From a virus: a stretch of DNA of 42,824 nt. Shown here piece by piece: positions 128 to 18,473 of this stretch. Location of the stretch: positions 1 through 42,824 of IMG/VR virus record IMGVR_UViG_3300042896_000308; one strand, written 5' to 3'. The notes below the pieces were generated by a model, which saw only the letters and a program-made list of their open reading frames with translations, had not been told where the DNA came from and searched no databases. How positions within the stretch are numbered: position 1 is the first letter of the stretch; each line of letters starts with the position of its first letter. The translations under genes were made by a program, and so were the position numbers.

Positions 128-215
128 CAAAAACGCCATGAGCGCGGGACCGGTAACGGTCGGCAGCGGCATCATTGTCACCGTGCCGGTGGGGTCATCC
201 TGGGTGATCGTATGA
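1..215 (+). CDS. Tail fibre protein, 3' part (continues from 41887)
   Basis: This is the C-terminal piece of the fibre gene that starts at 41887. Joined through the 127-bp overlap, the first whole codon in this copy is at base 3 and the stop is the TGA at 213-215, giving about 341 residues in all. The visible end is glycine-rich (a run G-G-G-A-T-G-G-G-S), followed by a short beta-type tail ending in G-S-S-W-V-I-V, as seen at the tips of many phage fibres. The stop overlaps the ATG of the next tail gene (ATGA), so translation is probably coupled. It appears truncated only because of where the circle was opened. Confidence 0.85.
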   Translation, partial: KFEGYNGAAWGAVGGGATGGGSDDIFVENGQTVTTNYSITSGKNAMSAGPVTVGSGIIVTVPVGSSWVIV

Positions 216-565
216 GCGAAATTCGAGTTAACGCAGTCAAGAACACCAGCGGCATTGAGCGTTACCTGGCGCAGGCCTGGGTGAACTTTAATGGCACCGG
301 TACCGTGGCAATCCGCGCAAGTGGCAACGTGTCAAGCATTACCGATAACGGTGTTGGCGACTACACGGTGAACTTTACGACGGCAATGGCCGATGCAAAT
401 ATGTCAGCGGTGGGGAGCGCGGGAGAGGCAACCAACGCAAGCGACGTAAACCGGATTTGTGGTGTAAACATTTACGCCGCTAACCAAGCAAGGGTGACGA
501 CATCTGTCGGGACTACTTCTGCAAAGTCTGATTTTTCTTTGGTAACCGTCGCCGTCTTCCGCTGA
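212..565 (+). CDS. Small tail protein, copy 1 of 3
   Basis: This 117-residue protein is the first of three tandem relatives. A conserved core at about residues 22-62 (A-W-V-N-F-N-G-T-G-T, then S-S-I-T-D-N-G and G-D-Y-T-V-N-F) recurs in the two genes downstream, while the C-terminal half differs completely. This core is widespread in small phage tail-fibre or tail-tip proteins. The constant N-terminal part probably folds or docks on the fibre and the variable end may touch the receptor; that role is inferred. The start overlaps the fibre stop, implying co-translation. It follows gpJ and the fibre, where lambdoid phages keep their host-range genes. Confidence 0.75.
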   Translation: MSEIRVNAVKNTSGIERYLAQAWVNFNGTGTVAIRASGNVSSITDNGVGDYTVNFTTAMADANMSAVGSAGEATNASDVNRICGVNIYAANQARVTTSVGTTSAKSDFSLVTVAVFR

Positions 566-574
566 AAGAACCCC

Positions 575-943
575 ATGAGCACACTTAGAACAGACACCCT
601 AACGAACGCAGCTGGCACCAAGTCCGTGCCGGTTGCCACCGTAGTGGACGGCAGCGCCAAGGCCTGGGTGAATTTCAATGGCACTGGGACTGTGGCGATA
701 CGGGCTGGGTTTAATGTGTCAAGCATTACGGACAACGGGGTGGGCGACTACACGGCAAACTTTACGGCGGCTTTTGCTGATGCAAATTATGGATTTGCAG
801 GCGCATCATCCTCGTCTTCTACGGTCTTTTCCAGCTTAGCCACAGCATCTCGCACTGCCTCCGCTCATCGCATAAACACCAAAAACACAAATAACGGTGT
901 CAACCAAGATGAGACTGACGTTTCTCTCTCATATTTCCGCTGA
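575..943 (+). CDS. Small tail protein, copy 2 of 3
   Basis: This 122-residue protein shares with its neighbours an N-terminal M-S-T-L-R start and the core A-W-V-N-F-N-G-T-G-T-V-A-I-R-A, F-N-V-S-S-I-T-D-N-G, G-D-Y-T-A-N-F (about residues 29-64). Its last 50 residues are serine/threonine/asparagine-rich, unlike either sister protein, and are encoded by visibly more AT-rich DNA than the core. It sits 9 bp after copy 1 with a GAAAG-type ribosome site before the ATG. Gene duplication followed by exchange or rapid divergence of the C-terminal half is the simplest reading. A role as host-contact protein is inferred from position and this pattern. Confidence 0.75.
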   Translation: MSTLRTDTLTNAAGTKSVPVATVVDGSAKAWVNFNGTGTVAIRAGFNVSSITDNGVGDYTANFTAAFADANYGFAGASSSSSTVFSSLATASRTASAHRINTKNTNNGVNQDETDVSLSYFR

Positions 944-978
944 AAAACTTTAATGAACACGAAAGGCTGGGCCGGTGA

Positions 979-1350
979 TTGAGCACACTAAGAGTAAACG
1001 CAATTCAAGACGTGCCCGGAACTGGCGCACCGGCGATAACCGTGCCTGGCACGGCTAAAGCGTGGGTCAACTTTAACGGGACGGGAACGGTTGCTATTCG
1101 GGCGTCATTTAACGTGAGCAGCATTACCGATAATGGAACCGGAAACTACACGGCAAATTTTGCAGCGGCGGTTACTGACGCAAACTTTGCGGTAACTTGC
1201 ACGTCTAGTGATGACGGCACGTATCCATGGACAACGACGTTATGGGGACCAACAGCCCAAACCAGTACATCTGTTCGGACGCAAACATGGCTTTCATATA
1301 ATGGCGCGCCCATAGACCCCACTCGAGCTTGTATCATTGTCCATAGATAG
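979..1350 (+). CDS. Small tail protein, copy 3 of 3 (TTG start)
   Basis: This 123-residue protein is the third paralogue. The TTG at 979 was chosen because it gives the same M-S-T-L-R opening as copy 2 and has an AAAGG ribosome site 11-12 bases upstream; no in-frame ATG lies nearby. The core (about residues 28-63) keeps A-W-V-N-F-N-G-T-G-T and S-S-I-T-D-N-G-T-G. The end is again unique, rich in T, W and S, and finishes R-A-C-I-I-V-H-R. Using the weak TTG may lower its dose relative to copies 1 and 2. Function as a tail or receptor-contact protein is inferred. Confidence 0.72.
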   Translation: MSTLRVNAIQDVPGTGAPAITVPGTAKAWVNFNGTGTVAIRASFNVSSITDNGTGNYTANFAAAVTDANFAVTCTSSDDGTYPWTTTLWGPTAQTSTSVRTQTWLSYNGAPIDPTRACIIVHR

Positions 1351-5420: not shown

Positions 5421-5678
5421 GTACAACATGGACCAATTCGGTCTAACAATGTTGTACTTAATGCCGGAAAACGGTTCAACAGTACAGCATAAACGGTGCC
5501 GCCTGGCGGGAAGTAGGAGGTAAAAGGCTATGCAAAAGCAAACGTTTAGCAGCCCAAACGGTAAACGGCTATTCTGCGTGGCGCCTATGATGGACTGGAC
5601 GGACAGGGCATAAAAAAGGGGTCGCATCCTAGCATTCATGCCGGTTTGCGCCCCTATGTTGTACTGGGTGTTGTACTG
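5421..5678. other. attP: attP region with arm-type repeats and dusA core
   Basis: The octamer TGTTGTAC occurs four times: inverted at 5421-5428, direct at 5450-5457, and twice at 5657-5664 and 5669-5676. The last two form a 12-bp spaced tandem. The first two form a 9-bp inverted repeat (GTACAACAT / ATGTTGTAC, 5421-5429 and 5449-5457) with a nested GACC/GGTC pair. Between the pairs, about 5569-5607, lies sequence that encodes the conserved start of host DusA. Arm sites on both sides of a core that mimics a host gene is the expected attP layout. Exact core and crossover limits cannot be set without an attB sequence. Confidence 0.75.
5530..5613 (+). CDS. Phage-borne 5' end of dusA (in attP)
   Basis: This 27-codon frame is preceded by a perfect AGGAGGT (5515-5521) eight bases from the ATG. 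It reads M-Q-K-Q-T-F-S-S-P-N-G-K-R-L-F followed by C-V-A-P-M-M-D-W-T-D-R, then A and stop. The V-A-P-M-x-D-W-T-D-R string is the invariant N-terminal motif of tRNA-dihydrouridine synthase A. On integration the phage would supply a new ribosome site, start codon and 15 or so replacement codons to the rest of host dusA, keeping the enzyme expressed. In the free phage the frame stops at once (TAA 5611-5613), so no functional peptide is expected. Confidence 0.82.
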   Translation: MQKQTFSSPNGKRLFCVAPMMDWTDRA

Positions 5679-9151: not shown

Positions 9152-9430
9152 ATGAAGGCCGACGAACTTTTAAGCCAGGCGGCCCGGCACATGAATGACC
9201 GGGCCGCTACATACGACAAGCCAGAGGGCGAGCGCAGCATGGGCCGCGCTGTGCAGGCGTTCAACGCCATCACGGGCCGCGACCTGGCCGAGCCCGAGGG
9301 CTGGCTACTGCTCCAAGTGCTCAAGGATGTGCGCTTGTTTCAGCAGCCGGGCTACCACGCGGACAGCGCGGAGGACTGCATTGCATACGCAGCGCTGAAG
9401 GCTGAAGCAAAACTAAAGGGCACCTTATGA
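9152..9430 (+). CDS. DUF6378-like small phage protein
   Basis: This 92-residue protein has the pattern R-A-A-T-Y-D-K-P-E-G-E-R-S-M near residues 18-31 and D-C-I-A-Y-A-A-L-K-A-E close to the end. This matches a widespread small phage protein family (DUF6378, assigned from memory of its motif) of unknown function, usually found among recombination and replication genes as here. It starts two bases after the Sak4-like stop and overlaps the next gene by four bases, so it is translated as part of the operon. It is probably soluble and helical. Confidence 0.7.
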   Translation: MKADELLSQAARHMNDRAATYDKPEGERSMGRAVQAFNAITGRDLAEPEGWLLLQVLKDVRLFQQPGYHADSAEDCIAYAALKAEAKLKGTL

Positions 9431-16184: not shown

Positions 16185-18473
16185 ATGAATTCACACCCCC
16201 TGTCGCACGGGTCGATCATCGACCATTTCCGCGACGCCATGGCCAACGCTGGCCTACCTTATGCCGGGGAGATCGTCCCCGACGCGGGCAAAATCACGCG
16301 CTTTACTGTTTCGGGCGACCGCCCCAAGTCGATGACCGGCTGGTTCGTGCTGTACACGGACGGCATCCCAGCGGGCGAGTTCGGCTGCTGGAAGCGGGGC
16401 ATGCAGTCGACGTGGTGCGCGAAGGAGCCGAACGAAATCAGCCAGGCCGAGCGTGAGGCTATCGACCGGCGCCGCGTTGAGGCCCAAGCGGCCCGCGATG
16501 CGATGGCGGCCCAGGTGCAGGGCGAGGCTGCCGAGCTGGCCGCGATTATGTGGGAGGCGAGTGCTGAGGTGCCCAACGGCGCCGCCCACCCGTACCTGGC
16601 CCGCAAGGGCGTGGCGTCCTACGGCCTACGGCTGGCTACCTGGCGCCGGGACTTTGGCGACCGCGAGGTGGCCGTGGAGGACGCGCTACTGGTGCCGGTG
16701 CGCGATGGCAAGAAGGTGGTGAGCCTGCAGGCCATATTCCCGTCTAAGGACAACCCGCTGGGGCGCGACAAGGATTTTCTGCCCGGCGGCAAGAAGCGCG
16801 GGTGTTTCTACGCCATCGGCAAGCCCGGTAACGATGAGCAGGCGCCGACGATTTATATTTGCGAGGGTTACGCCACGGGGGCCAGCGTGCACCAGGCGAC
16901 GGGCTGTCCGGTGATCGTGGCGTTTGATGCGGGCAACCTGCGCCCGGTGGCTGAGCGGATTCGGGCGCGGTACCCACGGGGCAACCTGGTGGTGGCGGCT
17001 GACAATGACCGCTGGACGGCCCAGCCGTTTGAGAACCCCGGCGTGCATTACGGTACCCAGGCGGCGCGTGAGGTGGGCGCCCGCTTGGTGGTGCCTGAGT
17101 TTGCCGACCTGGCCAGCAGGCCGACGGATTTCAACGACCTGCACGTGGCCGAGGGCATCGCGGCGGTGTTGGCGCAACTGGTGCCCCAGGCCGCACCGGT
17201 GGCGGCCCCGGTATCTGCTCCAGCCAATGACAACACCCCAGGCGCCATTGCTGTGGTGGAGCATGACCATGCTACTGTGGACTGGTTCAGCCCGTTCCCG
17301 GACTTCAACGGCAAAGGGCGGCCCATCGCTACCATCGAGAACGTGGCCGAGGCGTGCCGCCGCCTGGGTGTGGTGGTGCGGTACAACGTCATTCGCAAGG
17401 ACATCGAGCTAATCATTCCCGGCGCGCGGTTCAGCGTGGATAACCGGGCCAATGCGTCGCTGGCCTGGCTGGCGTCGGCTTGCACGCGGTTTGGCGTGCC
17501 TAACGGGCCGCTGGGCGACTTCCTGTGCTACATGGCGGACCAGAACCTTTACAACCCGGTGGCCACGTGGATTCAGTCCAAGCCTTGGGACGGCGTGACG
17601 CGCCTCAATGCACTGTACAACACGATCACGGCCGAGGGTGAGGGCGAGGATTCCCGTATCTGGGACATCAAGGCGGCCATGATGCGCCGGTGGATGATCA
17701 GCGCATGCGCGGCGGCCTTCAACCCCAACGGCGTGAGCGCGCACGGCGTGCTGGTGCTGCAGGGCAATCAGTACCTAGGCAAGACCAAGTGGTTCAAGGG
17801 CCTGGTGCCCGCGCACCTGGGTGTTATCCAGGACGGGCTGATGCTACGTCCTGATGACCGGGACAGCGTGAAGCAGGTGGTTTCTTACTGGCTGGTCGAG
17901 CTGGGCGAGCTGGACGCCACGTTCCGCAAGTCGGATATTGCGCAGCTTAAATCGTTCCTGACCCGCGACCGCGACGTGTTGCGCCGGGCTTATGCCAAGA
18001 TGGAGAGCGAGTACGCCAGGCGGACGGTGTTCTTTGCCAGCGTTAACCCGCGCCAGTTCCTGCACGACCCGACGGGCAACCGGCGCTACTGGACGATCAG
18101 TTGTGAGGCAATCAACCACGACCACGATCTGGATATGCAACAGGTGTGGGCCGAGGTTTACGAGACGCTGTATGCCAAGGGCGAGACTTGGTATCTGACG
18201 CCCGACGAAATGCAGGCGCTGAACGACCAGAACAAAGACCATGAGGTGCTGGACCCAATACGCGAGCGCATCCTGACCCGCCTAAACTGGGAAGACCCAC
18301 AAAGCTCCTGGCGCTGGATGACGGCCACGGACGTTATGACCGAGGTAGGCTTCGACAGGCCAACGCGGGCGGACGTTACCCAGACCGGGCAGATACTGCA
18401 CGAGCTGAACGGGGGGCAACGGCGCAAGAGCAACGGCAAGCACTTGTCGCTGGTGCCCATGAGGCGCAACTGA
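16185..18473 (+). CDS. TOPRIM primase / VapE-type helicase
   Basis: This 762-residue replication protein should unwind and prime at the phage origin. It has an N-terminal domain (about 1-100) and a primase region with TOPRIM signatures I-C-E-G-Y-A-T-G (about 225-232) and V-V-A-A-D-N-D (about 267-273). A linker rich in A/P ends near 350. A VapE-family helicase domain (about 430-660) follows, with L-Q-G-N-Q-Y-L-G-K-T-K as Walker A and Y-W-L-V-E-L-G-E-L-D as the acidic motif. A winged-helix-like end (710-762) resembles the separate protein at 18556. A strong terminator follows. Zinc-finger residues of classical DnaG are not evident. Confidence 0.9.
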   Translation: MNSHPLSHGSIIDHFRDAMANAGLPYAGEIVPDAGKITRFTVSGDRPKSMTGWFVLYTDGIPAGEFGCWKRGMQSTWCAKEPNEISQAEREAIDRRRVEAQAARDAMAAQVQGEAAELAAIMWEASAEVPNGAAHPYLARKGVASYGLRLATWRRDFGDREVAVEDALLVPVRDGKKVVSLQAIFPSKDNPLGRDKDFLPGGKKRGCFYAIGKPGNDEQAPTIYICEGYATGASVHQATGCPVIVAFDAGNLRPVAERIRARYPRGNLVVAADNDRWTAQPFENPGVHYGTQAAREVGARLVVPEFADLASRPTDFNDLHVAEGIAAVLAQLVPQAAPVAAPVSAPANDNTPGAIAVVEHDHATVDWFSPFPDFNGKGRPIATIENVAEACRRLGVVVRYNVIRKDIELIIPGARFSVDNRANASLAWLASACTRFGVPNGPLGDFLCYMADQNLYNPVATWIQSKPWDGVTRLNALYNTITAEGEGEDSRIWDIKAAMMRRWMISACAAAFNPNGVSAHGVLVLQGNQYLGKTKWFKGLVPAHLGVIQDGLMLRPDDRDSVKQVVSYWLVELGELDATFRKSDIAQLKSFLTRDRDVLRRAYAKMESEYARRTVFFASVNPRQFLHDPTGNRRYWTISCEAINHDHDLDMQQVWAEVYETLYAKGETWYLTPDEMQALNDQNKDHEVLDPIRERILTRLNWEDPQSSWRWMTATDVMTEVGFDRPTRADVTQTGQILHELNGGQRRKSNGKHLSLVPMRRN

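Follow-up and report, generated by a model that had tools for sequence, protein, structure and literature searches.

The window, by which we mean the whole stretch of viral DNA analysed (42,824 nucleotides), contains what is almost certainly the attachment site (attP) of a phage whose tyrosine integrase is specific for dusA, and integration at this site would leave an in-frame hybrid dusA. The product of dusA is a tRNA-modifying enzyme. In the proposed pathway, the 8-bp sequence ATGATGGA would be where the integrase (Int) recombines attP with the 5′ region of host dusA. The hybrid dusA beside int would draw its ribosome site, its start codon and its first 19 to 22 codons from the phage, and the remainder from the host. 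The head of host dusA would be left behind at the far end of the prophage, reading into a stop codon five codons past the crossover. Upon insertion the front of dusA would be swapped and the gene not destroyed. Because the phage piece is kept in frame and the β1 residues preceding the crossover are intact, lysogens probably retain DusA and bear a smaller cost from the prophage.

The features of the site are collected in Table 1. The first-pass annotation had described a perfect AGGAGGT, an ATG and a reading frame leading into the DusA motif, and these are exact to the base in both coordinates and sequence. The ORF splits as MQKQTFSSPNGKRLF plus CVAPMMDWTDRA, the latter running to the stop codon; the phage codons to the left of the crossover would take the place of host dusA's own. 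This dusA start is divergent from the tyrosine integrase gene, with 121 bp separating the two starts. The arrangement AGGAGGT-N8-ATG is found once in the window, where shuffled sequences predict 0.03, and the back-translated VAPMMDWTDR motif also has a single occurrence, with none in the shuffles; neither is therefore expected by chance. The calculated anti-SD pairing energy of the site is −11.5 kcal/mol, a value matched by 0.07% of random positions. Among 99 homologous sites it is the strongest, level with those of two viral relatives (L005 and L020), while many relatives possess weak ones; the remark on its perfection was thus correct, and the site is somewhat unusual in the family. An unusually strong ribosome site is the sole distinctive feature of the window phage within the dusA-integrating kind. 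As for promoters, the top sigma-70 site in the dusA direction does not outscore shuffled sequence (P 0.48), and a separate scan of that direction found none. We consider it unlikely that the phage-borne dusA head acts as a tuned lysogenic switch, with a promoter among the Int arm sites and a strong ribosome site. Were this the case, DusA in lysogens would lie above or below the native level, and tRNA dihydrouridylation would be phage-controlled, to the benefit of the phage.

Table 1. Features at and around the putative attP site of the window phage
Feature	Position	Strand	Remarks
Tyrosine integrase, 354 aa	4344-5408	-	Phage_integrase PF00589, E 5e-17; PHROG_1, E 2e-44
Candidate arm-type Int site ATGTTGTAC, P arm	5421-5429	-	RTGTTGTAC repeat
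Candidate arm-type Int site ATGTTGTAC, P arm	5449-5457	+	RTGTTGTAC repeat
Shine-Dalgarno AGGAGGT of phage-borne dusA start	5515-5521	+	8 nt ahead of ATG
Phage-borne dusA 5′ end, MQKQTFSSPNGKRLFCVAPMMDWTDRA followed by stop	5530-5613	+	ATG 5530-5532, 27 codons, stop 5611-5613
Inferred crossover block ATGATGGA	5587-5594	+	8 bp common to nine attL/attR pairs
Hairpin then TTTTTT, candidate terminator	5612-5656	-	z -2.4; immediately beside attP core
Candidate arm-type Int site ATGTTGTAC, P′ arm	5656-5664	+	RTGTTGTAC repeat
Candidate arm-type Int site GTGTTGTAC, P′ arm	5668-5676	+	RTGTTGTAC repeat
Xre-like HTH protein, about 85-89 aa	5687-5956	-	Across attP from int

The integrase aligns at residues R215, H300, R303, H326 and Y335 with the catalytic R...H-x-x-R...H...Y set, and these five are invariant across an alignment of 15 integrase sequences. 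The sequence RTGTTGTAC is present in six copies in the whole window, against an expectation of 0.23, and four of these surround the core, the two on the integrase side being inverted and the two on the other side direct. This layout is what one would expect of an attP with arm-type sites, to which Int would bind. The four exact repeats and the adjoining divergent integrase back the label attP, which had been given to this region at the outset.

On the other side of the core, the minus-strand hairpin probably ends transcription coming from the HTH/SSB side before it reaches the core, and in doing so would shield the host, or dusA, from transcription originating in the phage. Two related ideas were rejected. 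A plus-strand hairpin after the core does not qualify as a terminator for the host dusA head, since the T-run is absent from that strand and lies on the minus strand. Nor does the early stop past the core appear to be a selected insulator of the displaced head, with 12 of 26 such stops within eight codons against 8.2 expected (P 0.09). The HTH protein, homologues of which (64-69% identical) lie near attP in four free viral relatives (L002-L005), is possibly a repressor or a candidate directionality factor. A factor of the PrtN/RdfN type was discarded, since a search of the window for PF11112 gave no match at E≤1, although a highly divergent RdfN could escape such a search.

The record itself (42,824 bases) is that of a free virus with λ-like structural genes, including a GpA terminase, Phage_portal_2, a tape measure and gpJ. 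Three successive ORFs of ~117-123 aa (212-1350, plus strand), all matching the tail-fibre family PHROG 11355, are tail-fibre-related paralogues in tandem. The 762-aa product encoded at 16185-18473 (plus strand), with Toprim and VapE-like domains, is probably a phage primase-helicase. A 92-aa protein (9152-9430, plus strand) matches PHROG 474, whose label, phosphofructokinase, seems questionable for a phage protein of this small size.

Relatives of the integrase were sampled among viral contigs, the 80 best genomic loci, 399 Burkholderiales genomes and named phages. The scan of viral contigs yielded 22, the top one 72% identical. Of the closest viral relatives having sequence upstream of int, every contig shows a DusA start at that position: in the free viral forms (L002-L006, L010 and L020) the short start stands alone, and in six integrated contigs (L007, L008, L009, L015, L016 and L019) it continues into a complete host DusA. 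The integrases of the 80 best genomic loci, nearly all from Alphaproteobacteria, are 56-63% identical to that of the window. At 76 of these loci the element lies at dusA and its start runs in frame into the host gene, the hybrid being full-length in 75 and cut by the contig end in one. L102 sits in dusA. In three bacterial contigs (L031, L044 and L072) int is located beside an attP-like dusA start to which no host dusA is joined, and these are possibly tandem, unintegrated/episomal or cryptic copies. At L059, no junction with dusA is seen in the 174 bp upstream of int. Six of the 399 Burkholderiales genomes gave a match, all six at dusA, the start from the element being in frame, and including integrases at 37-42% identity; one of them is the Cupriavidus genome of L040, counted already among the 80. 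The dusA start is found beside int in all seven of the free phages RHph_Y3_1, AH2, F1Pa, BcepIL02, AS1, Haddon and mEp460, and an Acinetobacter phage integrase matches that of the window at 35%.

In one bacterial genome (G008, contig C67, the source of L033) copies of the core are found at 38.7, 100.7, 104.2 and 121.0 kb, all on one strand, which suggests tandem elements stacked at dusA.

No relative was encountered at a site other than dusA, all those compared being at most 72% identical and none near-identical, and the core does match bacterial dusA. Since the collections searched yielded no near-identical integrase, and no lysogen of either the window phage or a near-identical phage (the best relative being 72% identical), we infer the integration of this phage at dusA from a consistent family. 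It would integrate as its relatives do, and the hybrid would be translated from the phage's own ribosome site.

In nine genomes the two ends of the element were recovered, at a distance of 38-176 kb from each other. At the int end the start carried by the element is fused to the body of host dusA, and at the far end a different, host-derived DusA head passes the core and stops inside the element. The exchange of the host dusA 5′ end for phage sequence, as the first-pass annotation had proposed it, is therefore supported in the relatives, from which it would extend to the window phage. The only block identical across the nine attL/attR pairs is ATGATSGA, the adjoining base on each side varying in some, which places the crossover in or next to those eight bases. 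In relatives the block encodes Met-Met/Ile-Asp; in the window it covers codons 20-22 (Met-Met-Asp), so that the phage would supply codons 1-19 at least. The phage-supplied part includes the residues that match the N-terminal end of a solved DusA structure (3b0p) in alignment, and these have been assigned to strand β1 of the DusA barrel (PMC4482086). To the right of the core, the sequence is not conserved among relatives.

We compared the 19 codons to the left of the crossover between related elements, taken as 30 disjoint pairs. Differences at codon positions 1, 2 and 3 number 72, 61 and 150, and 170 of the changes are nonsynonymous against 212±7 expected under random placement of those changes; 0 of 2000 permutations gave so low a number. 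Over the five codons nearest the crossover the nonsynonymous count is 16 against 43.7 expected, and purifying selection outside these five is weak (P 0.07). The upstream region has no codon-position periodicity of this kind. The codons borne by the elements thus show purifying selection as protein, and this selection is strongest in the five codons next to the crossover. Because DNA binding by Int alone is not expected to yield a codon-position pattern, the elements appear to keep the stretch as coding sequence.

These data bear on a simpler possibility, that the dusA-like stretch serves Int as DNA homology alone, with the frame, start and ribosome site incidental and lysogeny costing the host its DusA. 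Recombination does demand that the core match host DNA, the ribosome sites of many relatives are weak, and the N-terminal tail is weakly constrained. We nevertheless regard this as very improbable, as the frame is open in all 76 of the dusA-integrated genomic relatives (the one cut by a contig end included), third-position bias and a nonsynonymous deficit are seen left of the crossover, and expression of dusA after integration has been measured (PMC8409611). There is next to no likelihood that the ORF encodes a free-standing 27-aa phage peptide, or is the remnant of a former phage dusA gene, unrelated to integration: with its own strong ribosome site and stop codon it could be translated by the free phage, but it lies beside int between arm-type repeats, the fragment occupies the same place in every relative while full-length dusA occurs only in integrated forms, and conservation does not extend to the right of the core.

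An attP at which the phage supplies a new front to dusA also agrees with known systems; dusA is a published site for one family of tyrosine integrases, as had been stated at first reading (PMC4482086; PMC8409611). Farrugia et al. (2015) described 5′-end replacement of dusA by dusA-associated integrases (DAI), the reference being that of A. baumannii D1279779 (AGH34419), and the prophages or genomic islands carrying them provide a new dusA 5′ end that includes the β1 strand and a putative promoter (PMC4482086). The window integrase, like the DAI, is an RHRH/Y tyrosine recombinase. As with DAI, its 5′ end adjoins a dusA 5′ end divergently (across the 121 bp in the window, and with host dusA itself in relatives), and attachment falls inside the conserved 5′ region of dusA with imperfect direct repeats, as seen in the nine pairs of junctions, which the window core matches. 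The window differs in being a divergent metagenomic phage member, with integration deduced from relatives and without a clear promoter. In Vibrio cholerae, IMEVchUSA3 likewise replaces the dusA 5′ end and supplies a new in-frame N-terminus, and Durand et al. (2021) found with lacZ fusions (dusA′-lacZ) that it restores the dusA frame and also expression, at a lower level (PMC8409611). IMEVchUSA3 differs from the window phage in being a mobilizable island whose directionality factor is RdfN (PrtN-like), whereas in the window the position across attP is taken by the HTH protein, which lacks a PF11112 match. Burkholderia phages AH2 and BcepIL02, Pseudomonas phage vB_PaeP-F1Pa and mEp460 have integrases 35-54% identical and the same dusA start at attP, but belong to other phage genera and hosts and have weaker predicted ribosome sites. 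With 5′-end replacement published in 2015 and retained expression demonstrated in 2021, the mechanism proposed for the window is already known.

The window phage would thus be a clear example of a temperate phage that takes the front of a conserved housekeeping gene for its insertion site and does not destroy that gene. For the family as a whole, selection at the codon level argues that the piece carried by these elements is maintained as protein, beyond DNA homology.
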